A stretch of DNA of 46,512 nucleotides from positions 11,583 to 58,094 of the forward strand of contig PBSO01000006.1 of NCBI GenBank assembly GCA_002726275.1, written 5' to 3'. A program made the position numbers and the translations under genes. Of the stretch, positions 12,078-38,461 are shown in pieces (within the stretch, counting starts at the first letter, position 1; each line of letters begins with the position of its first letter). This stretch comes from Methanobacteriota archaeon (GTDB taxonomy: Archaea; Thermoplasmatota; Poseidoniia; Poseidoniales; Thalassarchaeaceae). The notes beneath the pieces were generated by a model. It had not been told where the DNA came from. It ran no database searches and worked only from the letters and a program-made list of their open reading frames with translations.

Positions 12078-12114
12078 CATATTGGCTCAGACCGTAGGTC
12101 TGAGTGAGAATATG
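12078..12114. promoter_or_regulatory. Inverted repeat in the rpo7 / giant-protein divergent intergenic region
   Basis: CATATT-GG-CTCAGACC-GTA-GGTCTGAG-TGAG-AATATG: perfect 8-bp inner and 6-bp outer arms. Confidence 0.5.
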
Positions 12115-12157
12115 GGGCGAACGTTCAAGTGGGTTACGAAAACCAAATTGGACTCTG

Positions 12158-15100
12158 ATGACGGTAGATGCTGGCAACAAACCCCCCTCCAATAGGGCTG
12201 GAGCGACCTTGGCTGTTTCGATAATGCTGGTCATGTCACTATCTCCAATGCTCATCATGATGACGGATGGAGACGCACTGAATAAAGACTCAGGGGGAAT
12301 GATGACTTCCGTAGATGAGCCTTGGTCTGATGGCGATCAGCCATGGCCACAGCCGGGAAGGACACCGGATAGGGCATCAGTCCCCCCTCACCATGTCCAT
12401 TCCACCGATTCTTCGACAGGGGGCCTCCTGTCGATTGTAGATCCTGCAATTAACTGGGAGTTTGGTTCCGATCAATTAGGCACCGACTCTCTCGGAACGC
12501 CAATTGCTGATTTCTCTTCATCCTTGACCACTGAACCATCCTCTGAGGAGAGGTGCGGAGGAGACTCACTCTACACAATCCTCGTGCAAACAGACCCTTC
12601 ATCCAGTGAAAGTCACATGAAAATTATCGAGGGCGAAGACTCAGATTTAGCGTGGGAGGTGAGCCTTGGGACGACAGAGATGATCAAGTCCTCGCCCGTG
12701 GTTGTGGATTTGGATGACGATGGGAAGCCAGAGGTAATAGTTGCTTATGACCAAAGTGGGACCCTTCATGTTGATGCATGGTCACCAAGGCTATTCTGCT
12801 CGGTTACCGGATGGGACCCCGGTGCAGGTAGTTCGCAGCAACCAATCTGGACATGGGAAGAAGACGACTTGATGATAAGTGGAGACCCTACAAGCACCCT
12901 GAATGGACTTGGTGGCCATAGGCCAACAACTCAACCTTTGCTTGCGGACTTGGATCTTGATGGAGATGCCGAGTTAGTTCTGGCTACGATTAATGAGAAT
13001 AGTGGGGACCCGGTTGTTGTAGCACTAAGCCTCCCCTCGAGCGGGACTCCCTCTACACTTTGGGAGAAGACACTAGACAAGGGGAGTCATCCATCGGACC
13101 CAGCATTTGCACAGACAGATGAGAATACCGGCTATGTTGTCCTGACCACCACTGAACACACCAATGGCGGAATGTGGGTTTGGAGACTTGATTCGACTTC
13201 CGGAGATTCAGGATGGGATGGGCTTAGTTTGAGTAATGTGGACGGAGACTCTGACGTGCCCCACATCAGACTCCCAGGACCCGTAGTAGCAAATCTGGAT
13301 GCCGATGAAACCCCTGAAATCGTTGTTACCATCCCCACTGATGCAGACGGATCTAACACCATAGACGGTGCTGAATTCAGAGGACTAGAGATCAGCACTG
13401 GTTCTGAAATTTGGTCATTTCAGGCAGAAAATGGGTATGCTGACGCACCCCCCATTGTTATCGATACAGATGATGATGGCACGGTAGATAGGGTCTGTTG
13501 GGCCACTTGGTGGCAGACGGCAACAGCTAGACATGGGGTCACTGGCTGTCACGATGTAGATGGCTCTAGTCCAGAGGAGGCTTGGCACCGAGACCTTGAG
13601 CAGAGTAGCGGCGCCCCAAATGACGAGATTGCGGTCTCTCCGCCCTTTTGGATGGATATTGATGGTAGCGGCGAGCCTGAGCTTCTGGTCGCCTACGGTA
13701 GATCCCTTTGGGCGTTCGATGGATCTGAGGGTACTGGATCTGCTATTAACACCGATTGGACCAATGAACTGGAGCTGAATCATCGAACTTGGTCAGCTCC
13801 CGCGATGGCCGACATAGATGGCGATAGGACCCTTGACATCGTCATTGGAAGTAGTGTTGTATCACTTGAGAGGTCTGACGTCAGGCCACTTCTTGATGGC
13901 GGAGGTATAGAGTTGGATCCAACTGCCCCTAGCCCCGGAGAGGAGGTGACTGTGTCTGCATTTATCGAGAACTCTGGGACCGGACCCATAGATTCGGAAT
14001 TCGATGCGGTCCTCTATGCTGACGGAATAGAAATAGGAAGGAGGACATTTACCTCGCTAGAGCCTGTTGAGCCATCGGGATCGGGGTCTTTTGACACATT
14101 CAGTGTTGAATGGTCGGGCCCCCTAGGAGATCATGAGTTCGTGCTGGAGCTAGATAGCTTTGGGAACTTGACCCAGACTAGGACGGACAATGATATCGCT
14201 AGCAAAATAGTGTCTATCGTGCCCACGTATAATGCAACATTCGAAATTCCAACTGAGCCCGTCAGAGTGTCTCCTGGAAGTAGCACTACATCTAGCCCCT
14301 CCGTTAGATCCACGGGAAGGCTCGCAGGGACGTGGTCACTCAGTGTAGATGGTTCTGAACTTCCAGAGGGTTGGACCTGGTCTGACTCCACCCAGGGAGG
14401 AATCAGTAATATCGAGATCGGAGTGGGTCAGACATGGTCACCCGACATTGTCATCACAGCCCCATCAGAAGCCCTAGGTTCGGACTCTGGATACCTATCT
14501 CTGACACTAACTCTTGATGAGGACTCGAACGTTTCTGTTTCTGCAAACCTTCCAATTGAGGCGAATAGGACAAGGGGGCTCTCACTTAGGGGGCCGGACG
14601 GAACGGCACAGAGTAGTGGATATGGGCTGCCAGGGCAGAATGCAGAATCATGGTTCATGGCCGAGAATCTAGGAAATGCCGAAGAAGACCAAATTCTTCT
14701 TTCTTGGGATAGCACTTCCTGGGGTAATGACCTACGACTACACGATACAGGAGGTTCCGAAAGGTCGGCATTGATACTGGGCCCTGGGGAGAAGCTGGCC
14801 CTAGTGGCAACTCTCGATGTCCCCTTGGATGCCCCTGCAGGAGATTCAGTTAGCACACCCTTGACAATGTGTGTTGGCACGGGAACGGAAGAAGAGACAT
14901 GTCAAACTATCCAATTGACCTTCCATTCCTCAAACGTGGTTTCTGGCAATCACATCAGAAGTGTCCCCTCGAATGGACTTGAATGGTCTGTGATTTCTGA
15001 AATGCCCTCCGACAGCGGGACTGTCACATGGTCCCTTTCTGAAATGGGGATGGCGATGCCAGGGTGGTCTTGGGCGGGAACTGGTGACCTCTCGGTTTCG

Positions 15101-17827
15101 GGAGACTCGGTAATTATGTCCGGATCTCCAGGAGGGACCTCTTCGGGCTCTATTGTTGCTAACCTGCCCGAAGACGCTTCGCCTGCATTCCACTATTTCT
15201 CAGACACGAGTCAAGAGTCCTCAGAGCACAACCTAATCATCACATTGGAGGTTTTGCAGATTTTCAGATCAAACTTGACCGTGATTTCACCACAAGTTCA
15301 GCCATATCTGGTTGAAGTGGAGGAGGGTTCCCTCGTAGTCCTGAGGCTCGAGAATCCAGGAAATGGTGGGGACGAATACTCCCTTGACTACTCGGTGGTA
15401 CTGGATTCCAATATTACCAGTGACCCGGGCGTAGATGTGGAGTTTTCAATTGGCCAAGTTGGACTGACTTCCGGAAGCCTGACCACCATTCCAGTAACTG
15501 TAACCCTCCCCGAAAGCACACCTGCAGGAGTGCCCTTGTGGATTGAGTTCACTGTAACTTCCCTGGGGGATCCCGGAGTATCATCGACTGATGCCGTAGC
15601 TCTTGAAGCGAGGCAGGACCACAGATGGGATATCGTCGCTAGCTTCAATTCAACTCCGGTAGCCGAGGGAAGTGTTTTCATCGTTGATCCGGGCGATTCT
15701 TTCTCATTGGATGTTGATGCTACCAACATAGGCAATCTGGCAGATGACATCATTCTCGAAGTGATGACCGCATTGGACCTAGTGGAGGGCGATAATTCTC
15801 TCGGGTGGGCCTCCACAGGAGACTCGGAGGAAAATGTTGGAGTGAATCAGACTGTTTCACTTAGCATCGATTCATCCATTTCTGCGGAATCATGGAGTGG
15901 CTCATCTATGGCTGTCACAGTCACAGCATCTTCTCAGGGAGAGGTGGTTTCCACATTCTCATTCACAATTGAGTCGGCTCATGTCCCATCATGGAACGCT
16001 ATGGCTGACCAAGCGAATCTAGAAATCGACCCTTTCGGTTCGGAAATCCAACTTACAGTAGTACAGGATGGCAACTCTCCCACGAGGGCATATACATCGA
16101 TGTTCATCACTGGTGAGTCTGGTTGGCAGGTTGATGAGCCAGAGGACCTCCCTGTCCTTTACCCGGGTGAAACAGCCCCCCTAATCCTGAACATCACCCC
16201 TCCTCAGGATGCCATCTATGGAAGAGCTGTGGAGCTTAATCTTCGTCTAAGGGAGGGAGACTCTAGTGTTGTTTCCGAGATAGTTTTCCCACTCAGAGTT
16301 GCAGTCACGCACGACTTCTCCCTATCCGGGGAAGGTGATTGGCTGGTTAGCAACTCGGGAGGGCACCCCCTAGCGATGCTTGAGAACCTTGGAAATGCCC
16401 CCACGACCATCTCATTGCAAGTTCTGAGCCTCCCACTTGATTGGTCCGTATCAGGTAGAAGCGAGGTGGTTCTCGGAGTCGGAGAGATTGTTGGAGTCCC
16501 CTTGGAGTTGATTCCTGATGAAGGCTGGGACGGCAGTGTGAAGACGATCAGAATATTGGCTGAGGACTCAGAGGGGAATCAACGTGAAATCAACCTTGAT
16601 ACCGAGCGAGGAGGCTTTTCTTGGGCCACCTCGCCAGTTATTATCTCGACCAGTGGAGATCACGCTCTGCTCGGAATCCATAACTCAAACTCCGACTCGA
16701 TTGTATCTGACTCCGATTCAGGACTTCTGGAATGGAACGATTTGGGTGGTTGGTCATGGCCTGCCACCACAAGCGGAATTGGGGGAGTTTCGGTTTCCTC
16801 TAGCTCCGAAACTGGATATTTACAATACAAGTCGATTGTAGTTATTCCACCGACCAGAAATGCGAATTGTATAATCTATGGGACGGTAAATGAAATCTCT
16901 GCCAGTTGCTCCATAAACAATGGAACGTCACCTTTCGCATACACCTTGATGCTAGTTGACGACCTAGGAAACATGATGGGGTCGCAATCTGGAACAGTTG
17001 GAGCTAATTCTACCGGGGTCGTCAACATGAGCTCTTCCGACTGGTCGCCCTCTCCAGGAAATAGGGAAATCTCAATCAGATTGTTGGACTCGAGGGGGAT
17101 TCTTGTAACCTCGAACTATCAGAACTTTGAGGTCCGGAGGAGTGATTGGAACGTCGGACTCGTTCAATTGGAACTAGACGGTCAGGGCGCTAGTCAGAAG
17201 ATTGAGATTTCGACAAAAAGAGATAATCATGAGTTGCTCCCAGTCGGCACCCAGTGCGTCATTTCAATTGTAGTAGAGGGGCAATACTCCTCTACTCACT
17301 TGGTCGACATGACTACGACAAATGCACTTGCCCCCAAACCTTCCATTGACAGGCCGGACGTTGACGACGATGAGGAGCTCGTGGCCACCATTAGCTGTAG
17401 CTTCCCTTGGGATCAGGATGCGGATCCTTCCGACGATGAGGCCAGAATAATACTCTCTGGTGGCGAGGACATTGAAATTGGAATTAGCGATTCAAGTACG
17501 GCAATTGCAGCGGCGGCAATCGTTATTGGCGCATCAATAGCGATATCCTGGATGATTAGCAATTACAGGGAGGGCAAAGAAATGATGGAGAAGGCTCGTC
17601 TTGCAGTTGAGAAGAAGGCGATTGAGAAGAGGGCCTCTATCGAAGAAAGTAAGAGGTCTGAACCAGTTGACTCATCGGAAGAATTGAGTGAGGGCATGCG
17701 AGATGAGATGGCTGATACCGAGGCCAAAGGAGCTGAGAGGGGGCCATCAGAAGATACTCCACCTGTTGGACACGCCGATGACGACTCATTCGAGAGTCGC
17801 CTTAACAGGCTAACGGGCGACAGGTAA
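12158..17827 (+). CDS. Giant secreted protein with FG-GAP/VCBS-like repeats, CARDB-like domain, C-terminal TM and charged cytoplasmic tail
   Basis: ORF 12104..17827; ATG at 12158 precedes the signal peptide. Repeated VVDLDDDGKPEVIVAY / LLADLDLDGDAELVLA / FWMDIDGSGEPELLVAYG / MADIDGDRTLDIVIG. CARDB-like PSPGEEVTVSAFIENSGTGPIDSEF; TM TAIAAAAIVIGASIAISWMIS. Confidence 0.85.
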   Translation: MTVDAGNKPPSNRAGATLAVSIMLVMSLSPMLIMMTDGDALNKDSGGMMTSVDEPWSDGDQPWPQPGRTPDRASVPPHHVHSTDSSTGGLLSIVDPAINWEFGSDQLGTDSLGTPIADFSSSLTTEPSSEERCGGDSLYTILVQTDPSSSESHMKIIEGEDSDLAWEVSLGTTEMIKSSPVVVDLDDDGKPEVIVAYDQSGTLHVDAWSPRLFCSVTGWDPGAGSSQQPIWTWEEDDLMISGDPTSTLNGLGGHRPTTQPLLADLDLDGDAELVLATINENSGDPVVVALSLPSSGTPSTLWEKTLDKGSHPSDPAFAQTDENTGYVVLTTTEHTNGGMWVWRLDSTSGDSGWDGLSLSNVDGDSDVPHIRLPGPVVANLDADETPEIVVTIPTDADGSNTIDGAEFRGLEISTGSEIWSFQAENGYADAPPIVIDTDDDGTVDRVCWATWWQTATARHGVTGCHDVDGSSPEEAWHRDLEQSSGAPNDEIAVSPPFWMDIDGSGEPELLVAYGRSLWAFDGSEGTGSAINTDWTNELELNHRTWSAPAMADIDGDRTLDIVIGSSVVSLERSDVRPLLDGGGIELDPTAPSPGEEVTVSAFIENSGTGPIDSEFDAVLYADGIEIGRRTFTSLEPVEPSGSGSFDTFSVEWSGPLGDHEFVLELDSFGNLTQTRTDNDIASKIVSIVPTYNATFEIPTEPVRVSPGSSTTSSPSVRSTGRLAGTWSLSVDGSELPEGWTWSDSTQGGISNIEIGVGQTWSPDIVITAPSEALGSDSGYLSLTLTLDEDSNVSVSANLPIEANRTRGLSLRGPDGTAQSSGYGLPGQNAESWFMAENLGNAEEDQILLSWDSTSWGNDLRLHDTGGSERSALILGPGEKLALVATLDVPLDAPAGDSVSTPLTMCVGTGTEEETCQTIQLTFHSSNVVSGNHIRSVPSNGLEWSVISEMPSDSGTVTWSLSEMGMAMPGWSWAGTGDLSVSGDSVIMSGSPGGTSSGSIVANLPEDASPAFHYFSDTSQESSEHNLIITLEVLQIFRSNLTVISPQVQPYLVEVEEGSLVVLRLENPGNGGDEYSLDYSVVLDSNITSDPGVDVEFSIGQVGLTSGSLTTIPVTVTLPESTPAGVPLWIEFTVTSLGDPGVSSTDAVALEARQDHRWDIVASFNSTPVAEGSVFIVDPGDSFSLDVDATNIGNLADDIILEVMTALDLVEGDNSLGWASTGDSEENVGVNQTVSLSIDSSISAESWSGSSMAVTVTASSQGEVVSTFSFTIESAHVPSWNAMADQANLEIDPFGSEIQLTVVQDGNSPTRAYTSMFITGESGWQVDEPEDLPVLYPGETAPLILNITPPQDAIYGRAVELNLRLREGDSSVVSEIVFPLRVAVTHDFSLSGEGDWLVSNSGGHPLAMLENLGNAPTTISLQVLSLPLDWSVSGRSEVVLGVGEIVGVPLELIPDEGWDGSVKTIRILAEDSEGNQREINLDTERGGFSWATSPVIISTSGDHALLGIHNSNSDSIVSDSDSGLLEWNDLGGWSWPATTSGIGGVSVSSSSETGYLQYKSIVVIPPTRNANCIIYGTVNEISASCSINNGTSPFAYTLMLVDDLGNMMGSQSGTVGANSTGVVNMSSSDWSPSPGNREISIRLLDSRGILVTSNYQNFEVRRSDWNVGLVQLELDGQGASQKIEISTKRDNHELLPVGTQCVISIVVEGQYSSTHLVDMTTTNALAPKPSIDRPDVDDDEELVATISCSFPWDQDADPSDDEARIILSGGEDIEIGISDSSTAIAAAAIVIGASIAISWMISNYREGKEMMEKARLAVEKKAIEKRASIEESKRSEPVDSSEELSEGMRDEMADTEAKGAERGPSEDTPPVGHADDDSFESRLNRLTGDR

Positions 17828-18468: not shown

Positions 18469-19380
18469 TTAAAACGGCGTTCCGGTTAATCTCTCAAACA
18501 TCTCAGAATACAAATTGGCTGTTCTGGAGATTATTTCACCTGGTAGGGGCGGAATAGGTGGTTCGGTCGTACCGGATTTCCGTGCCTGGTAAAGTTCCGT
18601 GTGGTGTCCAGTACCAAGGTAATACTCACGGACAAATTCCTTTGAAAGGGATACTATCTGCCCCTTCTCGTAGGTTTCTGCATCCCACCAACGATCCTCG
18701 TCAAGCGTCCCAAATGAGTCGACAAGTACTGGTTTCCTACCGTCCCCTAAAGCAAACTCTTTCTTGCCATCAACATGAATTAGGCCCCTAGCTGATGCCT
18801 CCCTCTCAATTATCTCGTCTATTGCCAAGACACAGTCCAATATTGCATCAAACTCCTCATCGGTCAAGTTAGAAATTTCTAGTGCCTCCTGCCTGTCAAG
18901 TAATCTGTCGAACTTCTCAAATTTGGTTGAAACCTCCAAATATGGGCGAGGTAGTTTAACACCCATTTCAAGGGATTGACCCGGCTCAAAGCCAAATTCC
19001 TCCGAGCCTACGTCACCCCTCTCATACCTTCTCCATCCGGAACCAGCAAGGTGGTGCCTGCAGATAACCTCCAATGGAACGAAGACATTTTCCATGTCTC
19101 TCGGAATTGCTCCTGGCTCTTTTATGACTTCGAATTTCCTAGCGAGGCACCTATCCGGAGCATTCATCTCGATTAGATGGGTTTCACAAATCCCCTCCTG
19201 CTCGACCAAATTGAACCAATGACAAGTAGTTCTGTTGAGGCTCTCGCCCTTTCTTGGAACCAAACTAGGAATTATCTGATCAAAAACGCTAATCTGGTCT
19301 GTATACCTGAACTCAATCACCCCCGGGTCATCGGTACTCCATACCTGCTTAACCTTGCCCTGATACATCATCTGTGCCAT
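18469..19380 (-). CDS. purC: Phosphoribosylaminoimidazole-succinocarboxamide synthase
   Basis: MYQGKVKQVWSTDDPGVIEFRYTDQISVFDQIIPSLVPRKGESLNRTTCHWF..GLIHVDGKKEFALGD..LVDSFGTLDEDRWW. Start taken at ATG 19380. Confidence 0.93.
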   Translation of the reverse strand: MAQMMYQGKVKQVWSTDDPGVIEFRYTDQISVFDQIIPSLVPRKGESLNRTTCHWFNLVEQEGICETHLIEMNAPDRCLARKFEVIKEPGAIPRDMENVFVPLEVICRHHLAGSGWRRYERGDVGSEEFGFEPGQSLEMGVKLPRPYLEVSTKFEKFDRLLDRQEALEISNLTDEEFDAILDCVLAIDEIIEREASARGLIHVDGKKEFALGDGRKPVLVDSFGTLDEDRWWDAETYEKGQIVSLSKEFVREYYLGTGHHTELYQARKSGTTEPPIPPLPGEIISRTANLYSEMFERLTGTPF

Positions 19381-19426
19381 AGCACCCCTCGGCAGTAGTA
19401 CGCCGATGAACATTACTGACGTCTCG

Positions 19427-20404
19427 TCAGTCTTTCCTGGCTGCTTCATTAACTATGAATATCAAGAGAATGAAAATCGCAATTATTCTCAAATCAAAAT
19501 TCGATTCGGCATCTTGCGGCCCATGGGGGCTGAACAAATTAGCAACATTGGAAATTTCAGGAGACTCGGAAGATGAGACTATCACAGTTCCACCAACATG
19601 ATAGGGGGAGGATGTAATGAATCCACCTGGAATCATGTCTGCCGTCACCGAAGCCATTGCAATATCGCAAAGGTCAGATTGAGTTAGATCGCTGAGCACG
19701 TTTTCGAATACCCCACTGTCGTGACTATAAAGGGTCAGCTCGACCTCATAGTGGCTTGCTATACTGTTTGTAATCATCTCAGCCATATCGACCTCGAATC
19801 CAACCAATTCATCATTATCATCAATCCCGGTCATAGAGGACTCTTGGTCCAACATGCAGACTCCCAAATCAGTATCCTCATACAGTATCCTGTGCAGTGT
19901 TCCGCCCTCTGTTGGTGTGGGCCATGCGTCCTCGTACATCTCAAAATTTGAGGATTGTAGCTGAGGGAGGTCCGCGAACCATAGTTGGTGAGTCGAGAAT
20001 GCCGTGCCCCTCTGAAATATGTCCGCTAGCGCAGAATTAACTGCGTACCTTAGCTCATCATTTCCGCTTTCCTGAGAACTGTCGGATCTAATCATGGCCA
20101 CGAAATAATCCGAAATATCAAACATGTCGAGTACGGAAATCGTTGACCACTGCGCGATCATCTCGGAATCGGTCAGTAAGTGGTGTGGGCCAATAACATA
20201 GTCGACATTCCCATCCCTGAGCGCCCTCATGGCGAAGGGGACATTCTCGTACTCAATCTCCTCTAGTTCGGAGTTTTGCGCTATGAAATGCGAAGATTCC
20301 TCTCCAGCAATAGTGCCTATTGAATAAACTGACTCACCTGATGCCAGAACCCATGAAGAGGAAATCAGGATCGGGACGATTAGAACCGCGGCAAGCCCCC
20401 TCAT
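19427..20404 (-). CDS. Family-3-like amino-acid substrate-binding protein with apparently permuted lobe order and C-terminal TM anchor
   Basis: Signal peptide (MRGLAAVLIVPILISSSWVLASG), then lobe-II-like GTIAGEESSHFI..ALRDGNVDYVIG..NSALADIFQRGTAFSTHQLWF, then lobe-I-like GVCMLDQESSMTGIDDNDELVGFEVDMAEMITNSI..LCDIAMASVTADMIPGGFITSSPYHVGGTVIV, then TM LRIIAIFILLIFIVNEAARKD. Confidence 0.8.
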   Translation of the reverse strand: MRGLAAVLIVPILISSSWVLASGESVYSIGTIAGEESSHFIAQNSELEEIEYENVPFAMRALRDGNVDYVIGPHHLLTDSEMIAQWSTISVLDMFDISDYFVAMIRSDSSQESGNDELRYAVNSALADIFQRGTAFSTHQLWFADLPQLQSSNFEMYEDAWPTPTEGGTLHRILYEDTDLGVCMLDQESSMTGIDDNDELVGFEVDMAEMITNSIASHYEVELTLYSHDSGVFENVLSDLTQSDLCDIAMASVTADMIPGGFITSSPYHVGGTVIVSSSESPEISNVANLFSPHGPQDAESNFDLRIIAIFILLIFIVNEAARKD

Positions 20405-20489: not shown

Positions 20490-22673
20490 ATGCACGAAGC
20501 GGAATCTGGACTTCCCAAAGCAGCAGTCGGACAAGGCCTGGCCAGAGTTGTTGCTATTGCTGCGGTGGTTCTTCTCATGGCCGGCTCAACGCCCGGACAA
20601 GCGAGTGGATTCACAAGTGGTTGGGAAGTCGTTGAAAGCGGAACCTCAGAGGACCTTCTCACGGCTGCCCATTTTGGTGACCAAGTTTGGGCATTTGGCA
20701 CAGGCGGCGTAATTCTCAATAGTATTGACAACGGGATTTCCTGGGAAAATACAGATTCGCCAACGACGTCTGACATACGCCACTCAGACTCTGATTTTGG
20801 ATCTCTAATTATATCGGGGGATTCTGGATTGGTGCTTCTGAAGAGCAGTGTTGATGATGAATGGACGGATATCTCCCTTCCCGAGGATTCGCAAGTAAAT
20901 GGGGTATCCCTGACTGGTAGTCAGGGCGCCATAGCCGTAGGCAATAATGGAACTATTTGGGAGTTGGAGGATGGAGAATGGACTGAGATTAGTCTATCTA
21001 TCGAAAGTGACCTACTGGGAGTTTCATTTATTGATGAAAATCTAGGAATTGTGGTTGGTTCCGGTGGGACGATTCTTTTCTCCAGTGACGGAGGTGAGAA
21101 CTGGGAATATAGAGAGGCGCCTGAGGGAGCAGGTGATTCGGATATTGTATCTGTTGAATTCTACAGTCCTACCCGGATATATGCCATCACAGATGATGGC
21201 AGTATCCTGATATCAATGAGCAATGTAGTTACTGGTACTGATGTAGGTTATGTGTGGACACTGGTAGAGTTCGAAAGACACTATCCCCCAGGAACCAATG
21301 AATATATTCTAGGTCCCGAAAACCTGGATGTCGAATTGACTTCAGTAGAAGTTGTTTCGACCTCAAAGTTACTGATGACAGGGGCCGGGGGTTACCTCTC
21401 AATGAGTATTAACGGCGGGACCATCGTTTCGCAGCAGATCAATCCACTTGGCAACGAAACCAGCTTCAATGGAATTGTTATGGTGACAGGGTTCACTGGA
21501 ATAGCAATTGGAGATGGAGGTTCCATCCTATGGACAGATAATGCAGGTGCGGATGACCAGGTCGGTTTCGTGGTCCCTGAATATGGAAACTTTGGAGTCT
21601 TCGTAGACGAGACGAAGGAGATGTTCCTTTCTGGGTTCATTGCGACATTGAAGATAGTCGCATTTGGAATTGTTCTAGGTTTCTTCCTAGGGATAACCCT
21701 AGCTATGTGCAAAACCTCTCCAACATCTCTGAGGTATATTGTGGAACGTTATGAACCTCGATACGTCAGAGTAGCAGGAATTCCCATCCTAGGGGCAGGG
21801 ATTTTCCAGATATACTCAGCAATTCCCGGAACTACTGATCTAGGATTGCAGGGGATTGAGTACATTTTCCTACCCGTCGGTGCGCCAGAATCATTCCTGA
21901 GGATTCTACTTGGCATTGCTCTGACATTCGTGGGTTTACTATTCCTGAGCAATGACGGCGAGTTTGCTAAAATTAGAATTAAGTCGATATCATTGAATCC
22001 TTGGAGGGTGAGGCCTCTAAACACTATAGCGACTGTATACACGGACTTCTTCCGCAATACCCCCTTAATTGTTCAATTCTTGTTCATTCACTTTGGAGTT
22101 AGGCTAGGGGCACTTATTCAAGGGCCCGGCCTGGACATCTTTAGCTTCGAGAATATAGGGGGGAATCACAATTTCATAACAGATATATTCGCTAGATACG
22201 ATTATTCAGAATCAAATTATGGAACACTAATTGGGGGGGTGCTGTATGATTCTGCGTTCATCAGCGCGATATGTGCCCTTGGTTTCAATTCCGGCGCATA
22301 CCAGTGTGAAACCATAAGAGGTGCAATTCAGGCAATTCCTTCTGCACAGATGGAAGCGGGAAGAAGCATTGGATTGACCTACCTTCAAACGATGCGGCGA
22401 GTAATAATGCCCCAAGCAATTAGGATATGCATACCCCCAATGGGAAATGAAATGGTCAACTTGGTTCTAAACTCATCCCTAGCGATGATTATTGGATATG
22501 CAGAACTCACACGACAGGGGAAGTTGATTGTTGCAAGTACCTTCCAATACGCATACGCTTGGGGAATGGTTCTGATATCCTACTTCGTGGTAACCTGGAC
22601 CCTCGCACTTTTCCTCAGGTGGATGGAAGAAAAAACCAGAATACCAGGGCTGGGGATGACAGGAGGTAACTGA
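20490..22673 (+). CDS. Fusion: signal/TM plus Ycf48/BNR-like beta-propeller plus polar amino-acid ABC transporter permease
   Basis: Residues ~40-360: TSGWEVVESGTSEDLLTAAHFGDQVWAFGTGGVILNSIDNGISWEN.. GIVVGSGGTILFSSDGGENWEYREAP.. TGIAIGDGGSILWTDNAG. Residues ~370-727: FLSGFIATLKIVAFGIVLGFFLGITLA.. YTDFFRNTPLIVQFLFIHFG.. SAQMEAGRSIGLTYLQTMRRVIMPQAIRICIPPMGNE (EAA loop). Confidence 0.92.
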   Translation: MHEAESGLPKAAVGQGLARVVAIAAVVLLMAGSTPGQASGFTSGWEVVESGTSEDLLTAAHFGDQVWAFGTGGVILNSIDNGISWENTDSPTTSDIRHSDSDFGSLIISGDSGLVLLKSSVDDEWTDISLPEDSQVNGVSLTGSQGAIAVGNNGTIWELEDGEWTEISLSIESDLLGVSFIDENLGIVVGSGGTILFSSDGGENWEYREAPEGAGDSDIVSVEFYSPTRIYAITDDGSILISMSNVVTGTDVGYVWTLVEFERHYPPGTNEYILGPENLDVELTSVEVVSTSKLLMTGAGGYLSMSINGGTIVSQQINPLGNETSFNGIVMVTGFTGIAIGDGGSILWTDNAGADDQVGFVVPEYGNFGVFVDETKEMFLSGFIATLKIVAFGIVLGFFLGITLAMCKTSPTSLRYIVERYEPRYVRVAGIPILGAGIFQIYSAIPGTTDLGLQGIEYIFLPVGAPESFLRILLGIALTFVGLLFLSNDGEFAKIRIKSISLNPWRVRPLNTIATVYTDFFRNTPLIVQFLFIHFGVRLGALIQGPGLDIFSFENIGGNHNFITDIFARYDYSESNYGTLIGGVLYDSAFISAICALGFNSGAYQCETIRGAIQAIPSAQMEAGRSIGLTYLQTMRRVIMPQAIRICIPPMGNEMVNLVLNSSLAMIIGYAELTRQGKLIVASTFQYAYAWGMVLISYFVVTWTLALFLRWMEEKTRIPGLGMTGGN

Positions 22674-24781
<2,108 letters not shown>

Positions 24782-28997: not shown

Positions 28998-29477
28998 ATG
29001 ACATGGAGGAGAGTGGAGATAGACATCTCCGATGAAGGCGAGGGAGGCGAGACGTCACATCCGAGTTCGTCCCTTGGCCTCGATATTTCTGCCTCTGAGT
29101 CGCATTCACAGTTTTTAGCCGAATCATCGCACATCTCCGAGGTTTCAAGAGGACATGAGGGCTTTCTCAACCAGGTTGGAGTAATCCCTGAGTCGTCAAA
29201 GATGGCTTCTAATGAGATACTTCCAGTTGGCGAACTAGTTGCCGATCTTGGTGGTTCGGTTAATGGCGACTTCATGGAAATACCGATGCCATCGACAGAT
29301 AGGAGAGACGTGGTCCTGGAGGTCATGGAGGGAGAATTGGGGAACTTGGCCAGAATAATGTCGCCAAGTTCTTTCGGTGGAGTACTGAGGACTTTCAGAC
29401 TTCCATCTGGTTCCATTATTTCCGGTGCGACTTGGAATGGCCATACATTGGGGCTGTCACTGGAGAATCACTCCTGA
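28998..29477 (+). CDS. Hypothetical protein
   Basis: 159-aa ORF following the helicase; its last 10 nt overlap the convergent giant gene. No family recognised. Confidence 0.5.
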   Translation: MTWRRVEIDISDEGEGGETSHPSSSLGLDISASESHSQFLAESSHISEVSRGHEGFLNQVGVIPESSKMASNEILPVGELVADLGGSVNGDFMEIPMPSTDRRDVVLEVMEGELGNLARIMSPSSFGGVLRTFRLPSGSIISGATWNGHTLGLSLENHS

Positions 29478-32400
29478 GGAACCAAGGAGGTCTCTCTTGA
29501 TGGGACCTCGTCAAGCTGGTCAATCTCCTGTAGAACTGCGCTCAGTGCCATCTGGGCACTCTCCCTATGTGGCTCTCCCAATACGTGGCTAGAGTACCTT
29601 GCCTCCTCGAAAATCCTGTCCAGTGAGAGCAGTGCCTGCTCGCTAATCGGTAGAGCGTTCCTTATTGCAAGCTCGAACTCCCTGACTGTCTCGAAGTCCC
29701 TCCTCAGGAAGCCCCTGCTCATCAGAATCTGGCAGAGTCCCTCGTAGCAGTTGAATATGGCCTCCCTAACCTCGTCCCCTGCGGCCAGGAGTTCTGCGGT
29801 GTAGCTGAACACTCCTGCCAAATCATCAATGGCGGCCTGCTTTCTCCTCCTTACGAACATCACTCCTGCTACGGCTAGACCAATCAAAACAATGGCAATC
29901 AGGGCAGTCAAAGCTGGCCCTACCAAGGATGCCCCTGCCTCTGGTTCGTACACGACGTCTACGACGGCGAACTGCGAGAGTCTGGCAGCGTCTATCGGAT
30001 CTATCAGATCCGAGTCTGAGCTGAATTCCACCGATAGTTCGCCCCAGAAGGCCCTATCCCACAGAGGGTGGTTCTCGTGGAATGACTCGAATTGGTAAGT
30101 GAAAATTCCATTCTGATCGGTGACACCCACCACAGTGAAGTGAGTGGCTGTCTCGTTTACCAGCCTCGCTGTTATGGAGACTCCCTCTATGGGTTGTATA
30201 CGGTCCGTCGCTGTGACATTCACCTTTCCAGACAGGGAGCTTTCCCCGATGCCAAGATAAAGTTCGTCCGGCAAGAACTCAAAGTTGACTGGTACCTTAA
30301 TCACGACCTCGAAATTAATCACGCCGCCATTGAGGAATCTTGAGGAGTCTGGATCAACAACCAATGACATACTGGCAATTCCGGGAGGCATGGTCGATAT
30401 CGCGTTTGACTCCACTAGGAATTGGCCGGTTGTTTCGTCCCATGTGATTTTTGTATTTGGCCTGAGTGAGTCCTCCCAATATAGGGAAATTTCCATCTCC
30501 TCCATAGTATTCCCCTCTCCCCCGATCTCAATAATCCTGCCAAGGACCCTGATTGGCCTATTCCCATCGCTTCTGACAACCTCATCCTCTAGGAATAGAA
30601 TCTCAATCTTTACATCGGCCCTTGTATAGACAGTGGCATTCACAGAATTTGCTAGGTACAACTGCTCTCCTGAGAATACCAGTGAAACATCGTGGGAGCC
30701 CCTAGAGATCAGATACCCAAGTTCGTGACTGATGCTGAATGTTCCGTCTATACTGGTAGTGATGGTGGAGATGACCTCTCCATCAAGTAGGAATGACAGT
30801 TCCCTGCCCTCCAATCCGGGATTTCCCGCTGAGTCTGCATCGAATAGCCTCCCAGAGAGGTTCCATGATCCACCCCGAGTGACCACGTTGTTCTCCACCT
30901 GCAGGGTCATCCCAGTATGATACGCTATTGTGAGGTTCGCTTCAACGGATCCTTGACGGTGATATCCTTGGTCGGGTGCAATTACAGTGAGGGAGTGTTG
31001 CCCGACATCTAGGAACTCTGAGACCACCCAGGAGTGTGCCCATTGGCCATTTTCATCGGTTGTAGTTGTGCCAATCAGTATTCCGTCGATGAAAATCTGA
31101 AGAGAGTGATTCTCGAGCCATCCATTTGGCAGATTGTCCTTGACATTACCACTGAGCTTCAGAACATCTCCGACTGCAACAGGATTGGGTTGTTCTATTT
31201 CGACCTCGACAGGTCCGAATACTGTGAAAATGGTGGTTGAGTTTGAGGCGATAACGAACTCCTCGCCGCTGAATTCAATTCTAACGTTCCTAGGCCCTAG
31301 TGGCATATCTGGTGGAACGGGGAAGAACAGACTGAATGTTCCGTTATCTGAGACTGACAGTGAAGTGAGGAATTGGTCGTTCATGTAAACGTCAAGTTCT
31401 CGGCCGGGGAGGACTCTGCCAGCACCATCAGTTAGCATCCCCTCAATAAGTAGGAGTTCGTTCCTATCTATCTCCCCGGGAGGCGTAGTTAGGACTACCT
31501 GCGAGGTCTGCGTGGCATTGAATTGCTCTGTTACTGTCGAAGGGAGGAAGTACTCGGGATTCAGGGAGTCGCCCTGCCCCATTGGATCGACCCAGGTAAA
31601 TCCTCCGAGGAAGTCCACGGTGAGAGTGTGGGCTCCATAGTCAGTGTCCAGTGGGAGGTCGTATGTAATGCTCCAAGCCCCAGTTGATGCGTTGGAAATT
31701 GAAGTGTACAAAGGACCGACATCTATGCCATCTATTGAGAGGTGGACCACTCCGCCCTTTTCCTCGCCATTCTCGATCAGTGGTGCACCGTGCTCATCCA
31801 ACAGGGTTCCAGTGAATGTTACTGACTCGCCTGCTATGGCCGAGCCTGTTACTGAGGTCACTTCGAGTACAGAGGGTGCAAGTATTACCACCCTTGTCCA
31901 TGTTTCATCGCCAAGCAACCCGGTTGAGCCATTGAATCCTGCGAATGTAGCAGTTATTGTCATCGGCCCCGGTGCCCTGTTTTCGTCAGTCTGAATTGAG
32001 GTTGTAAGTATGCCACCCTCATCTGTGAATCCTGACCACGATGGCGCCCCATCTATCGAGACGTCTATCTGGCCTCCCGAAACGAACTGTCCTGAATTGT
32101 CAATCAAGGACATGTTCAGGGTGATGTTGTCACCCCTCACGACCCTCTCATCCGGATCCAAGTCGGCAGGAGATATTATCGAAAGCATGGAGAATCCCCT
32201 GCTATCGAATGACCCATCTTCGGAGCTTGCGCCGTAATAGTTGACAGAAGGGGTGTAAGAAGCAGTGATGTTATGAGTCCCCCTGGGGAATGAAAGATCT
32301 AGGAAAATCCTAGCTGCCCATGTACCGTTTGCATCGACCGTCCCACCAGTTACAGAGAAGGAGTTAGTGTCACCGTCAATAGCGAAGTTTAGTGTTGGAT

Positions 32401-35400
32401 TCAGAGCATTTCCCGATCTGTCCACGATTCCACTCCCATTACTGGATGTCAACGTACCACTGATGTCTAGGAACTCTCCCGCAGCTGGATTGGAGGTGAT
32501 TGGATCGAATGATATGGTTGTCGGGGACCTTACTGTGATGGTGTTGATAATTGTTGATGAAGTGTGCAGTGTGTCCGAACCGTTCGATCCATTGAACATG
32601 AGAATTATTGGAATAAGTCCCAAGGGATGCGAATGAGGTACTGAAAATGTGAAGTTGACAATTCCCTGTCCGTTTGTGGACTGTTCGGGGTTAAGCCATG
32701 TTTCGTGGAATAATGCGGAGACGGACATGTTTGCTAACTGTCTGTCTGCATCACTTGACTCAACCAATCTAGCACCGAATGAGATTGATGTGCCCCTGTC
32801 GACTATTGTGTTCAATATCGGGTTTCTGTCTGTTAATTGAGTCACGCCTCTGACCAAGATAGTCTCATTGCCCGTCCCCGTTAGGTAGAAGGGGGTGCTT
32901 CCGTTTTCCACACTTACCACCACGGTTTTCAGCCCGTTGCTCACTCCGTCCCCCAGTGGGTCTGTTGGCACCATTACAGAAAATGAGCCGTTCGCTGAGG
33001 TGACGTGTCCAGTGATTAGTGTCTCACTAGGGTCATTTAGGAAGAAGACCTCCAGGGTCATAGGGCCAGAAACTGAACGGTTCTGGTCAACTCCGTCGAG
33101 GACCTGCCCTTGTAATTGGAAGAATTGCCCAGCAGTAACTTCCGGCAAGGGGGCATTGTCGATCCTGATGCTGCTTGCAACCTGTACAGTAAGGTTGACC
33201 ATGCTCTCATTGCCTAGCCACCTTCCTGCGTCAGGAGTAGTCAGGCTGTCAGTGATATCGTCCGGTGCATGCAGTCGAACGTCGTAATACCCAGGAGGGG
33301 CGTCTGCAGGAATTGTAGAAGTGAAGCGAGCAACCCCATCTGATCCTGAAACTGTGCTATTGAGGACCTGCTGAAGAGGTCCGCCCCAATCGAAGTACAT
33401 ATCGACAGTAGTATTTTGCAGTCTCTTCGAACTCTCCACATCGGTGATGGTGGCATTAGTCACCAGTGTCTGTCCTGCGATTACGATCGACTGCAGGGGC
33501 TCGGACTCCACCACATACTCGGTCTGAATCCCAGCTTGCAGTACAACTGCCCCGGGAACAAGGTAGTATGCACCTCCAGACGGGGGGTTCTTCTCGAAAT
33601 CTAGAATGAGTCTGAGATCGTATACCCCCGCTCCCACGCCGCTTGGCATTTGGAATGTTATGTTGTATTCACCCGTTGTGTTGTCAATCCACTGCTCGCC
33701 CAGTCTGTATGTTACGGGAGGGGCTGGGAGGCCGTCCGGAGTAGGGGGTTGTTCCGAGGGAACTTCCATATTGACGATTATCGAGGAGTTGTTTCCGAGA
33801 ATTGTGGTGTTCAGGTTAATGTCCCTAGTGAATCCTGATATCCAGGATGTTTGTCCCCTCGGAGTCCATTCTGAGCCGAGTGTGTGAGTTACGTCTGCCC
33901 TGCCTTGGACTCTGACGGTGTCCAGAACACTATTCGGAAGAAGCCATGTGGAGCCACTGTAATTCAGTTGCCATGGGTAATCTCCGGCCTCGACATCGAT
34001 TGTTGGCCTCCATGTGACCATGACCCTAGGTAGTTCGGGATTCGATTGATTCCACACTAGCTCTCCATTGAAATCCAGAGTGTAGTCTCCCAAGAAGCTC
34101 GCGACTGAAGTTCCAGTATGGTCGGACAGTGTGACCTCTACCTCTGAATCGGAACCAACTGGTGCAGGATTTAGGATATAGCTGAAGTTGATACGGCTCT
34201 TTACTCCGTGCTCATCCCTGACCACTGCCTCATCTTTTGCGAATAGTCCATCTGCCTCGAATTGATACCTTATCTCGACAAGTCCCGCAGGGATGGGGAC
34301 ATCAGCAGCTGAGAATGACCAATTTACGGCGAACTGCCCCAGTGCCCCGGACCAATCTGAATCATTCAGATACCACGATGTCAAGGTGGTGAATGGCCCA
34401 TTTGCAGCAGATCTTCGCATCTGCATTGTCAAGGTTCCATTTAGTGCCTCAGGAATCGCCGACCTACTTAGGACGGTTCCGTTGAGGAAAATGGGCTGAT
34501 CGATCTCCAGTATGGTGTTGTTTTCCCCCTGTCCCTCTAGAGTCACCGTCAAGTTTGGAGCGGGCGTCAGGTTCAGGTTAAAGCCGACTGAGCTGGGCCG
34601 TAAGTGGTAGAGTGGCGTGCTTGCGTTATTGAGGTCTTCCTCATGCCAACCAAGGAAATTCAGAGTTGCGGAAATCAATCCTTCCTGTTCAGTTTCGTCA
34701 ATTGGGACTGAGAATTCGTAGTACCCCCCTGCACCGACGCTGGAAATGAGGCTTACTGGTCCATCGAAAGAGGTAGTGTAGTTGAGGACTACCTGTAGGC
34801 TGTCCAACTGTGTGATGTCGTTGTATGGCTCACTGGAAAGGGATATGTCGCCCGTAATTGTGGTATTCACCCCTATGCCAATCTTGGGCTCATCAGGAGG
34901 TTCCGGGTCATTCACCGACATTGACACGTCATCAGTGACATTCAGCTTCCATGGGAATGATATTCCCTGGGATCCGACATACCCATTCTGGTATGTGCGA
35001 AGAACGAGTGATCCGTATCCAGGATTGATCACTTCTTGGGGTTGACCAGTGATGTTGAAGGTCCCATTTGAGTCGGTAATTGCAGTACCTATGTAGTGCT
35101 CTTCGATTGCTGCTGAACCGGGGACATTCTCAGTCTGATTTGATTTCACCAGATACATGTCAATGGTGATGTTAGAGACCGTTGACTGGTTCTCAGTGAA
35201 CCTGAGAGTTCCCTCCAGGGATAGATTGCCAGACGATAGGTCCCTATCGAACCATATGGGCCCCCAGGTTTCATCCACGACCTCCACAGTTGAGAGTAGG
35301 GGGCACGCCTCGAAGGGGATCCATCCCAAATCGGCATCGCCGAGATTGGAGTTGGTCTGTAAATGGACCTCTACCCATGAGGTGAAATCCTTGCCGTATA

Positions 35401-38400
35401 CCTCGAAAGAGGTTCCCGTCCACTTCCCTCCTGAGAAACCAGTAACTTTGCGGGCAGGGATTCCTGCGGATCTGAGCATGACGGCAAATAGGGTGCTGAA
35501 CTGATCACAGTCACCCTCTAGGGAATTATTGAGGATCCAAAATGAAAGGTCGTCTTCACCATCGGCAAGGCCCACTTCCGTACCATTGTGATTTCTTAGG
35601 AAGGTGGTTGTTGAATTGCCATTAACAATGAAATCCTGTATTGCTGAGACCCTGTCCCATGCAGAGAATGCTCCTGATTCGTTGATGATGGTAGTAGTGA
35701 TTGCATTGACAAAGGCAGCAGTGTTTCCCCTCTGCAAAAATTCGCTTGGTAAGTCTGTAGCGTAGGAACTGTTGGCAAACTCGGTGGTGTTATCTCTGAT
35801 TGCCTGTGTAATCAGTACTTGTGGGGCAGTGACGAATAAGGTGTCTATGGTTGCACCATCAACAATCACGTCTCTGGTGAAATTTGAGAAATTTAGACCG
35901 GCATTGGCATCGGTCCATCCCGTGTAATTGACCGCGTTGTGAGGGGCTATTATCTCCTCGCCCGAGAAAATTAATGCTCCTGATTCCAGTGATATCTCCC
36001 AACCTAAAACCTCAGATCCGTCCCAGAACTGTTGGTCGGCGACCCCCTGTGTGGTTGAGAATCCGGGGTACATCTGCGTGTTTCCAACTAGACTGGTGTT
36101 TACACCCCATGAAATTCCCGTGTAGAAGTCATAGGTATGCCATCTCCAGTAATGAGTAATGTTGGGATCTACGCCAACCGAGGTGTTCATTGCCTCGAAG
36201 AACATCATATTGGGGTCTATGTCATCAGCGGGGTCCCATGGGTCTCCATCGGCATTTAGACAATTCATGTCCCAGAACTCGGATGTGCACTCCTGTCCGT
36301 CGGGTATTCCTCCTCCGTCAGTATCCGGATCCCTCCAATCAGTGCCCGTGGCATTCTCAATGGTATCGGGGATTCCATCGCCGTCGGTATCTACGGGATT
36401 GAGGTCGTCATTCGGGTTGTTCTGCGGGTTAGTGCCATCGAGATACTCTTGGAAGTCTGTTACTCCTCCGTTGTCGGTGTCAGATTCATTCCACAACGTG
36501 AAGTAAGTGTCGGTCGTACCATTCCCGCCGAGACTCCCAAAGGCGACCAAACATACTGTGGTGTTCTCGAAGTAATTGTTTAGCCCATCGCCATCGGTAT
36601 CCAGAAGGTTATCACAGGGGTTGCTGGGGTCAGTTTGGTTGAGAATCTCGTCCAAGTCATTCACGCCATCGCCGTCGGTATCGGACATATTCCAGTCCGA
36701 CAGAAAACCAAAGCTTCCTGTTGATTCTTCCCAATCGGCCAAGCCGTCACCATCAGTGTCGAAGTAGTCATCGTCGCAAATGGGGTCGTTGGAAAGTCCG
36801 AGAGACTGGTCCCAACACCAAGAGAAGTTGACGAACAGTACTGTTGCCGCATCGGGCGGCTTGTCGGTATCTACTCCCCTCAATGTGTCACCATTAATGG
36901 AGGTGAACCTGAAGCCGGTTAGGCTCCCGTTGGTTGATGACACGTAGAACCCCATCGGCTCCCCATTCTGCCTCCAATCCTCGGGAGTGGGGTCGAGTGA
37001 TGTGGTTTCATTCAATGTAAGTATCATGTTAGTTGAATCGAAGTCTACGATGGACAGATTCAGTGTTTGGAGAGATGTGCAGGGATCTGTACCATGGGAC
37101 GGATCAAGTTCTGATCCATCACTAATCCCCCCTCCGTCCGTGTCGGCGACATTCCACAAGGTGCACGTCATATTTTCCTCCCAATTTGGGATTCCGTCAT
37201 CGTCAAAGTCACCAGAATCCTCAATTCTGGTCGGATCTGTCTCGTTCTCATCCACTACTCCGTTCCCATTGAGGTCTTCCTCGCCGTCATCGAACTGATC
37301 ATCATCAGTATTGTTGTCACGAGGGTCAGTCGCCAGAGGGGGATCGCCATATTGGCCATTCACCTCAACTCCGTCGTCAATTCCATCGCCATCGGTATCA
37401 GGGGATGTGGGATCAGTCAACAGAACGAGGGCCTCATAGGAGTCGTTTAGCCCATCGCCATCGGTATCATTAGACTGTGGGTCAGTGGATGTAATCCCAT
37501 CTACCTCCGCCGTGAAAATCTGACAGCCTCCCGGGCCAAGTTGCAGAACTGGGTTGCACGGAGATTCGGTGGCAGTCATACTCAATGGCCCTGGTCGGAA
37601 ATACTGAGTGGGCGGAGTTGTTGTACCATTCCTAGTCCCCCATGCTGGATTCACGAACTCCTTCAAGTTGACTAGTCCGTCTCCATCGGGATCTCCGAAA
37701 GCCCCATCTTGGTTTGTACGTGATGTTGGGTCGAGTCCATTTGCCACCTCCCAACCATCGGGCATCCCATCTCCGTCCGTATCCCACCCATTGGGATCCT
37801 CGTCTATGGCCCCATCGCCATCATCGTCGTCACTGGTGCAATTAGAGTCCCCATCCCCATCGGAATCAAAATTATCCACCATTCCGTCCTTATCGTCATC
37901 AAATGTGTTGAAGCATATGTTCCCCCATGGATCTTCATCGGCCCCATCTGAACCGAGGCCCTGGATAAGTTGCATGGCGCTCTCCTCGTCCCAATTACTA
38001 ACTGGGACCGTTCCATTCCACCAAACACCATTGTCAAGCTCATTTGGAGTGTTTGTGGAGTCCCAGTTAGATGGCATTCCGAACATGAACTCATTTAGGT
38101 TGGACAGGGAGTCTCCATCGGGATCACCTGTAGAGCCATTATCTCCAGAGGGGGAAAGTGGATTCAGGCCGTACTGCCACTCCCATCCGTCTGGGAGCCC
38201 GTCATTGTCTGTATCCCAGTCTTGGGGCTGAGTGTTGATGTAGAACTCTAGTCCATACGACAGGCCGTCCCCATCCTGATCCGTAGAAGCCAACGCTTCC
38301 CAAGATGCGAACTCCAGTGCGGAGTAGGATGAGAGTAACATTAGAACAGAGAAAATAATGGCAGACCTACTCTTAGAGAGACTGTCCGAACGGGCACCAG

Positions 38401-38461
38401 TAGATTGACTAAATGAGCTCATGCTACGCAACCCCTTGTAGTTGGGCGCAAAGTAGGGCAC
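29468..38461 (-). CDS. Giant (2997 aa) secreted protein: TSP3-like Ca-binding repeats, transglutaminase-like domain, many Ig-like domains, TM and DUF4129-like cytoplasmic C-terminus
   Basis: Repeated DTDGDGxxD motifs at 36.2-38.3 kb; EGDCDQFSTLFAVMLRSAGIPARKVTGFSGG..DFTSWVEVHLQ..LGWIPFEACPL. TM VGPALTALIAIVLIGLAVAGVMFV, then AELLAAGDEVREAIFNCYEGLCQILMSRGFLRRDFETVREFELAIRNALPISEQALLSLDRIFEEARYS. Confidence 0.9.
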   Translation of the reverse strand: MPYFAPNYKGLRSMSSFSQSTGARSDSLSKSRSAIIFSVLMLLSSYSALEFASWEALASTDQDGDGLSYGLEFYINTQPQDWDTDNDGLPDGWEWQYGLNPLSPSGDNGSTGDPDGDSLSNLNEFMFGMPSNWDSTNTPNELDNGVWWNGTVPVSNWDEESAMQLIQGLGSDGADEDPWGNICFNTFDDDKDGMVDNFDSDGDGDSNCTSDDDDGDGAIDEDPNGWDTDGDGMPDGWEVANGLDPTSRTNQDGAFGDPDGDGLVNLKEFVNPAWGTRNGTTTPPTQYFRPGPLSMTATESPCNPVLQLGPGGCQIFTAEVDGITSTDPQSNDTDGDGLNDSYEALVLLTDPTSPDTDGDGIDDGVEVNGQYGDPPLATDPRDNNTDDDQFDDGEEDLNGNGVVDENETDPTRIEDSGDFDDDGIPNWEENMTCTLWNVADTDGGGISDGSELDPSHGTDPCTSLQTLNLSIVDFDSTNMILTLNETTSLDPTPEDWRQNGEPMGFYVSSTNGSLTGFRFTSINGDTLRGVDTDKPPDAATVLFVNFSWCWDQSLGLSNDPICDDDYFDTDGDGLADWEESTGSFGFLSDWNMSDTDGDGVNDLDEILNQTDPSNPCDNLLDTDGDGLNNYFENTTVCLVAFGSLGGNGTTDTYFTLWNESDTDNGGVTDFQEYLDGTNPQNNPNDDLNPVDTDGDGIPDTIENATGTDWRDPDTDGGGIPDGQECTSEFWDMNCLNADGDPWDPADDIDPNMMFFEAMNTSVGVDPNITHYWRWHTYDFYTGISWGVNTSLVGNTQMYPGFSTTQGVADQQFWDGSEVLGWEISLESGALIFSGEEIIAPHNAVNYTGWTDANAGLNFSNFTRDVIVDGATIDTLFVTAPQVLITQAIRDNTTEFANSSYATDLPSEFLQRGNTAAFVNAITTTIINESGAFSAWDRVSAIQDFIVNGNSTTTFLRNHNGTEVGLADGEDDLSFWILNNSLEGDCDQFSTLFAVMLRSAGIPARKVTGFSGGKWTGTSFEVYGKDFTSWVEVHLQTNSNLGDADLGWIPFEACPLLSTVEVVDETWGPIWFDRDLSSGNLSLEGTLRFTENQSTVSNITIDMYLVKSNQTENVPGSAAIEEHYIGTAITDSNGTFNITGQPQEVINPGYGSLVLRTYQNGYVGSQGISFPWKLNVTDDVSMSVNDPEPPDEPKIGIGVNTTITGDISLSSEPYNDITQLDSLQVVLNYTTSFDGPVSLISSVGAGGYYEFSVPIDETEQEGLISATLNFLGWHEEDLNNASTPLYHLRPSSVGFNLNLTPAPNLTVTLEGQGENNTILEIDQPIFLNGTVLSRSAIPEALNGTLTMQMRRSAANGPFTTLTSWYLNDSDWSGALGQFAVNWSFSAADVPIPAGLVEIRYQFEADGLFAKDEAVVRDEHGVKSRINFSYILNPAPVGSDSEVEVTLSDHTGTSVASFLGDYTLDFNGELVWNQSNPELPRVMVTWRPTIDVEAGDYPWQLNYSGSTWLLPNSVLDTVRVQGRADVTHTLGSEWTPRGQTSWISGFTRDINLNTTILGNNSSIIVNMEVPSEQPPTPDGLPAPPVTYRLGEQWIDNTTGEYNITFQMPSGVGAGVYDLRLILDFEKNPPSGGAYYLVPGAVVLQAGIQTEYVVESEPLQSIVIAGQTLVTNATITDVESSKRLQNTTVDMYFDWGGPLQQVLNSTVSGSDGVARFTSTIPADAPPGYYDVRLHAPDDITDSLTTPDAGRWLGNESMVNLTVQVASSIRIDNAPLPEVTAGQFFQLQGQVLDGVDQNRSVSGPMTLEVFFLNDPSETLITGHVTSANGSFSVMVPTDPLGDGVSNGLKTVVVSVENGSTPFYLTGTGNETILVRGVTQLTDRNPILNTIVDRGTSISFGARLVESSDADRQLANMSVSALFHETWLNPEQSTNGQGIVNFTFSVPHSHPLGLIPIILMFNGSNGSDTLHTSSTIINTITVRSPTTISFDPITSNPAAGEFLDISGTLTSSNGSGIVDRSGNALNPTLNFAIDGDTNSFSVTGGTVDANGTWAARIFLDLSFPRGTHNITASYTPSVNYYGASSEDGSFDSRGFSMLSIISPADLDPDERVVRGDNITLNMSLIDNSGQFVSGGQIDVSIDGAPSWSGFTDEGGILTTSIQTDENRAPGPMTITATFAGFNGSTGLLGDETWTRVVILAPSVLEVTSVTGSAIAGESVTFTGTLLDEHGAPLIENGEEKGGVVHLSIDGIDVGPLYTSISNASTGAWSITYDLPLDTDYGAHTLTVDFLGGFTWVDPMGQGDSLNPEYFLPSTVTEQFNATQTSQVVLTTPPGEIDRNELLLIEGMLTDGAGRVLPGRELDVYMNDQFLTSLSVSDNGTFSLFFPVPPDMPLGPRNVRIEFSGEEFVIASNSTTIFTVFGPVEVEIEQPNPVAVGDVLKLSGNVKDNLPNGWLENHSLQIFIDGILIGTTTTDENGQWAHSWVVSEFLDVGQHSLTVIAPDQGYHRQGSVEANLTIAYHTGMTLQVENNVVTRGGSWNLSGRLFDADSAGNPGLEGRELSFLLDGEVISTITTSIDGTFSISHELGYLISRGSHDVSLVFSGEQLYLANSVNATVYTRADVKIEILFLEDEVVRSDGNRPIRVLGRIIEIGGEGNTMEEMEISLYWEDSLRPNTKITWDETTGQFLVESNAISTMPPGIASMSLVVDPDSSRFLNGGVINFEVVIKVPVNFEFLPDELYLGIGESSLSGKVNVTATDRIQPIEGVSITARLVNETATHFTVVGVTDQNGIFTYQFESFHENHPLWDRAFWGELSVEFSSDSDLIDPIDAARLSQFAVVDVVYEPEAGASLVGPALTALIAIVLIGLAVAGVMFVRRRKQAAIDDLAGVFSYTAELLAAGDEVREAIFNCYEGLCQILMSRGFLRRDFETVREFELAIRNALPISEQALLSLDRIFEEARYSSHVLGEPHRESAQMALSAVLQEIDQLDEVPSRETSLVPQE

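Follow-up and report, generated by a model that had tools for sequence, protein, structure and literature searches.

Sequence evidence for a circularly permuted family-3 solute-binding protein beside a propeller-fused GlnP-type permease in archaea

Circularly permuted solute-binding proteins (SBPs) of ABC transporters are already known in families other than family 3. In Treponema pallidum, TpMglB-2 (Tp0684) is a permuted type I sugar-binding protein for which the designation 'Type Ic' has been proposed, and its authors suggested that topology and tethering may be linked (PMC4990184). A permutation family comprising glycine betaine- and molybdate-binding proteins has also been found from structure with CPSARST, at less than 24% identity (PMC2395249). 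A search of the open-access literature, which leaves out most subscription journals, found no family-3 amino-acid SBP described as permuted.

This protein, hereafter P1, is encoded in a stretch of 46,512 nucleotides (the window) from an archaeon of the Thalassarchaeaceae. This family would correspond to Marine Group IIb, consistent with a study reporting branched-chain and L-amino-acid SBPs in Marine Group IIb and not in Marine Group IIa (PMC6336850). A reading made from the DNA letters only (the sequence-only reading) had proposed that P1 is an SBP with swapped lobes. Its interpretation is supported overall, with amendments described below.

Lobe order of P1

The P1 gene and its parts were delineated as follows, the exact lobe II boundary being placed from alignment and the signal peptide cleavage site being an estimate.

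19427..20404, minus strand: P1, gene of the circularly permuted SBP3 protein (325 aa; reading frame open, ATG start)
20327..20404, minus strand: signal peptide-like hydrophobic N-terminus, residues 1-26 (hydropathy peak at residues 1-23; kept in homologues)
20090..20326, minus strand: lobe II, canonically second, residues 27-105 (residues 36-144 correspond to canonical chain 130-232)
19970..20089, minus strand: C-terminal part of lobe I, residues 106-145, 'ELRYAVNSALADIFQRGTAFSTHQLWF' (residues 113-147 match GlnH 191-225)
19874..19969, minus strand: fused junction from the old C-terminus to the old N-terminus, residues 146-177, 'WPTPTEGGTL'
19577..19873, minus strand: N-terminal part of lobe I, canonically first, residues 178-276 (Pfam and phmmer)
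19532..19576, minus strand: crossing of the hinge plus the first turn of lobe II, residues 277-291, ending at the permutation cut
19436..19495, minus strand: C-terminal transmembrane helix, residues 304-323, with an invariant FDxR at its start
19856..19858, minus strand: Cys183, lobe I (invariant in window-type P1)
19667..19669, minus strand: Cys246, lobe I (candidate disulfide partner of Cys183)

The only Pfam family found in P1 is SBP_bac_3 (PF00497), with 33.4 bits against a gathering threshold of 26.4. This match pairs residues 183-284 with profile positions 4-97 (E 4.5e-8), i.e., 102 of the 325 residues and the first three quarters of the profile. A PHROGs match of unknown function (residues 194-289, E 3e-4) likewise reflects the lobe I half only. 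When P1 was searched with phmmer against PDB sequences, residues 195-286 aligned with positions 27-111 and residues 36-144 with positions 130-232 of AncQR (4zv1). The inverted order of these halves bears out the permutation that had been claimed, and P1 departs from the canonical order of SBP3 members (N-terminal part of lobe I, lobe II, C-terminal part of lobe I). After rotation of P1 by hand, a single colinear alignment was obtained, from 35-255 to 27-232 of AncQR (E 3.5e-6), with further amino-acid SBPs, among them GlnH and ArtJ, ranking below. Such a gain in score and colinearity upon rotation is the behavior expected of a permuted ABC-transporter SBP.

Similarly, an HMM was built from eight canonical bacterial SBP3s, and every rotation of the mature sequence was scored against it. 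In native order, the window P1 matches this profile only as two out-of-order pieces and reaches 22.6 bits, which increases to 35.6 bits at rotations 125-129. For three relatives from a second family (see below), scores at rotation ~120 rose from 77.7 to 161.5 bits (L138), from 68.9 to 150.8 (L139) and from 83.8 to 171.2 (L140), the rotated sequences starting at HMM position 21 or 25 and reaching position 253 of 257; the score increased in all 16 P1 rows tested. Chance similarity to SBP3 was rejected by two controls: 1) 60 shuffles of the window protein, scored over the rotations, gave a maximum of no more than 1.5 bits and 2) three held-out canonical SBPs scored best at or near zero rotation.

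At the sequence level, these comparisons identify P1 as a family-3 SBP that has undergone circular permutation in nature. Its cut separates 'SPEISNVANLF' from 'YSIGTIAGE', directly past the first hinge crossing from lobe I to lobe II, and the former motif aligns with 'SPTISDVFEL', which precedes 'AVQSGTT' in canonical-order proteins. Neither of the outcomes named as evidence against a swap was seen at this level: no complete, canonically ordered lobe I is matched by residues 27-145, and each half of P1 fits a complementary part of one canonical domain. The N-terminal half had been assigned to lobe II as a whole; lobe II is present there, followed by the C-terminal part of lobe I ('..ALADIFQRGT....LWF'). 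AlphaFold, run on a three-sequence alignment only (window, L034 and L035), returned a pLDDT of 32, and because no usable model was obtained, the fold and site geometry of P1 rest on sequence.

The C-terminal anchor foreseen by the sequence-only reading was recovered by hydropathy as a hydrophobic segment at residues ~300-323, and F303, D304, R306 and R323 are invariant across 15 aligned P1 homologues. In the window's family, P1 proteins of 323-331 residues with the same order and the same C-terminal helix occur in 17 genomes from three genera. A second family of the class (f3) carries a less diverged P1 in eight genomes (genera g23 and g24). The permuted order is thus kept in independent homologues (17 + 8 genomes), which confirms what homologues had been expected to show. 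NCBIfam C-terminal sorting signals (MYXO-CTERM, NPXTG) scored far below cut-off on the f3 tails. Profile searches with the P1 family identified two relatives among genome contigs ('Euryarchaeota archaeon UBA4' and 'UBA438') and none among viral contigs. Outside the class, the family-3 matches of the phylum search that were read are all in canonical order. A class of ~400-residue SBPs in relatives was considered as a further permuted form and set aside, since by Pfam range, sequence and neighboring permeases it looks AapJ-like and canonical.

Relatives of P1 and the origin of its order

Genomes of the window's family also encode ~1,040-residue lipobox proteins, here called P2 (among L041-L055, e.g., L043:4191-7418), which contain one SBP3 domain and two ANF_receptor/Peripla_BP_6 regions. 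In two P2 loci checked, a BPD_transp_2 permease gene (branched-chain amino-acid type) is located behind. The SBP3 domain of P2 begins inside lobe I ('WDPIIPNL..') and continues with lobe II and the C-terminal part of lobe I, while lobe I's opening strand and helix come last ('YPTPTEGSTL..VLESGSLKFCSDTxYPPFES..VGFDVD'). Its score is 88-119 bits in native order, where a further piece of 17-34 bits matches separately, and 131-162 bits once placed in canonical order. Across the fused junction, f3 P1 and P2 are colinear with 37-49% identity, the remaining piece being out of order, and this alignment includes a linker, 'VVLTDDxDxxTAxAYP', found in several P2s.

The linker motif of the P1 junction is also found in P2, is less clear in the second-family P1, and constitutes the N-terminal leader of canonical-order relatives, the C proteins. 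In the same clade, L044 and L047 have the canonical order with the leader 'PTPTEGSSL' or 'PEPSEGSSL' at the start of the domain. L044:3035-6643 and L047:1-2678 are large archaeal proteins, the former with additional LDL-receptor class A modules. Cys183 and Cys246, which may form a disulfide inside lobe I, occur together in the displayed rows of window-type P1, P2 and C, and neither occurs in the displayed rows of second-family P1 and bacterial SBPs.

Since f3 P1 and P2 align colinearly across it, the joint between the old C- and N-termini seems to have been made once, and P1 and P2 are most simply read as products of one tandem duplication that was trimmed on two occasions, each time at another place. 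In this scenario, an ancestral gene with two SBP3 domains in tandem would have been truncated at both ends, joining lobe II and the C-terminal part of lobe I from one copy to the N-terminal part of lobe I from the next, and P2 would have been resolved from this tandem a second time, by a cut elsewhere. Tandem arrays of two, three and four canonical SBP3 domains, 16-35 residues apart, do occur in the phylum; their existence indicates that such intermediates are viable, the arrays themselves not being the direct ancestor. No direct tandem ancestor of P1 and P2 was seen among the PF00497 hits in the class. The arrays L170-L173, from another family of the phylum, combine two to four tandem SBP3 domains with a C-terminal region which looks membrane-bound.

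In a midpoint-rooted tree, P1, f3 P1, P2 and C are set apart from bacterial and AapJ-like SBPs (99/98), the branch order within this group being unsettled. The long window-type P1 branch is placed with canonical C (83/79, weak support) and not with f3 P1, which would suggest that the permuted order arose twice, once in the f3 family and once in the window's family. However, both groups share the cut site, the C-terminal hydrophobic helix and the divergent locus with a fused permease, a single clade of window-type and f3 P1 is not rejected (p-AU 0.303), and the window-type branch carries a long-branch warning; two origins are accordingly judged improbable. It could also be argued that two unrelated truncated SBP fragments were joined by chance or by assembly error, as in native order each half gives a weak score of its own. 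This is hardly credible: the two halves complement each other within one domain, the rotation results contradict it, the order is kept in 25 genomes, and the gene is under purifying selection.

The importer locus and the binding site

P1 lies divergently to genes of an ABC importer, with the following neighbors:

20490..22673, plus strand: GlnP-type ABC permease (BPD_transp_1) with a fused YCF48-like beta-propeller, divergent to P1
22674..23417, plus strand: GlnQ-like ABC ATPase, directly behind the permease
23414..24778, minus strand: glutamate/leucine-type dehydrogenase, beside the ATPase (in the window and the loci of five relatives opened)
18469..19449, minus strand: SAICAR synthetase (purC), on the strand of P1 and overlapping its 3' end

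The propeller-permease divergently adjoins P1 in 17/17 genomes of the family, and the ATPase gene comes next after the permease in the loci opened. These include three f3 loci, in which P1 is divergent to the same pair. P1 thus shows the linkage to permease and ATPase genes expected of an importer's SBP subunit, and the propeller-permease is its likely partner. In many other species, permease and ATPase are retained with no P1 alongside. The propeller-GlnP fusion is found in six genera of the window's family and in f3, and its N-terminal YCF48/BNR propeller is probably extracytoplasmic. Between the window and a g9 genome (L010/L101, G098), the permeases share 81% identity, yet the adjacent P1s are just 37% identical; permeases of other species in the window's own genus are ~55% identical. 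This mismatch is read as gene exchange or a burst in P1. The window also contains two giant open reading frames (12104-17827, 1,907 aa; 29468-38461, 2,997 aa).

In six f3 P1s, positions 11, 52, 72, 77 and 161 are Asp, Trp, Thr, Arg and Asp, as in amino-acid SBPs, and a further contact listed between 11 and 52 is Tyr. The window P1 has Leu, Val, Thr, Ile and Pro at the five positions and Glu at the additional one, in an alignment which for diverged P1s (20-25% identity to f3) is uncertain at single positions. The equivalents of Asp11, Arg77 and Asp161, which contact alpha-amino acids, are thus present in the f3 relatives and in P2 and absent from the window P1. Other window-type P1s are changed similarly, L015 retaining the last Asp (161). 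The description of P1 as a permuted, C-terminally anchored receptor is hence retained for the permutation and the anchor, and it is doubtful whether the window P1 is a 'receptor' as usually understood, because the classical contact residues are missing in its branch. The idea that P1 is a pseudogene is rejected by dN/dS values of ~0.13 (window vs L005) and ~0.05 (L006 vs L008), which indicate purifying selection.

Both P2 and the propeller-permease were counted in 72 cases, the permease only in 14, P2 only in six and neither in 57, in a table made by hand from two listings that ignores shared ancestry. Both occur in genera g1, g4, g6, g7, g9 and g11. P2 was undetected in four P1 genomes, and none was seen in the f3 family, where P1 is intact. 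As P2 keeps the contacts, co-occurs with the permease and is not seen in f3 with its intact P1, a takeover of P1 function by P2 is suggested, and the intact SBP3 domain of P2 probably supplies the importer's substrate in the window's branch. The window P1 would most likely be a conserved membrane-bound accessory of the importer or a receptor for another ligand.

Beyond the permuted order and its link to the permease, we infer the following steps. P1 would fold as the usual two-lobed clamp, with its membrane attachment on the lobe II/hinge side, and would dock on the adjacent permease. Originally, it may have been the importer's own permuted, anchored receptor, and f3 P1 would still serve in amino-acid binding and delivery. 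In the window's family, the SBP3 domain of P2 would have taken over amino-acid capture, P1 being afterwards lost in many species and elsewhere kept as an accessory or for another ligand. As a whole, the explanation which combines a permutant of tandem-duplication origin, a clamp docking on the permease, a receptor role in f3 and an accessory or other-ligand role in the window's branch is considered quite probable. Its narrower form is considered possible, though less likely than not: a site-dead, membrane-bound importer accessory in the window's lineage, delivery by the differently permuted SBP3 domain of the three-SBP lipoprotein P2, and one tandem duplication behind both. A different reading is that the window P1 is still the importer's receptor, its pocket having been rebuilt for a ligand other than a standard alpha-amino acid. 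Within the genus, P1 and the adjacent permease have similar dN values, and this comparable purifying selection, together with the strict divergent linkage to permease and ATPase and the invariant residues in the lobes, argues for a rebuilt pocket. Nevertheless, the charged contacts are lost with no clearly conserved replacement set over three genera, the permease is of the GlnP/amino-acid type, and permease and ATPase occur in many species without an adjoining P1, which makes a rebuilt pocket rather unlikely.

Comparison with known systems

A single archaeal clade contains canonical, hinge-cut and lobe I-cut versions of one binding domain, with the fused junction still recognizable, and the tandem arrays of the phylum are the kind of intermediate predicted by permutation-by-duplication. 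This makes it a natural system for testing whether closure and permease docking depend on the order of the SBP lobes and on how many covalent links pass through the hinge. Since standard annotation sees part of the domain only (102/325 residues), similar permutants may be overlooked elsewhere.

Like canonical SBP3s (PF00497; GlnH, ArtJ and HisJ/LAO type), P1 has both lobes and both hinge segments in recognizable form and adjoins a GlnP/GlnQ-like permease and ATPase, and its f3 relatives retain the amino-acid contacts. Unlike them, its order is lobe II, C-terminal part of lobe I, N-terminal part of lobe I, with a C-terminal transmembrane anchor, and the window's branch is devoid of the amino-acid contacts. 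The tandem-SBP3 proteins L170-L173 resemble P1 in their head-to-tail family-3 domains, a layout that can yield a permutant by trimming, but contain two to four complete domains, each in canonical order. The glycine betaine- and molybdate-binding family similarly involves permuted relationships among ABC-transporter binding proteins, although in other SBP families, whereas the permuted and canonical relatives of P1 share one close archaeal clade. P1 is also reminiscent of TpMglB-2, a natural permutation of a membrane-tethered ABC-transporter SBP. In contrast to P1, however, TpMglB-2 has a Type I/Cluster B fold and a sugar ligand, is a lipoprotein without a C-terminal helix anchor, and had only its N-lobe strands moved to the C-terminus.
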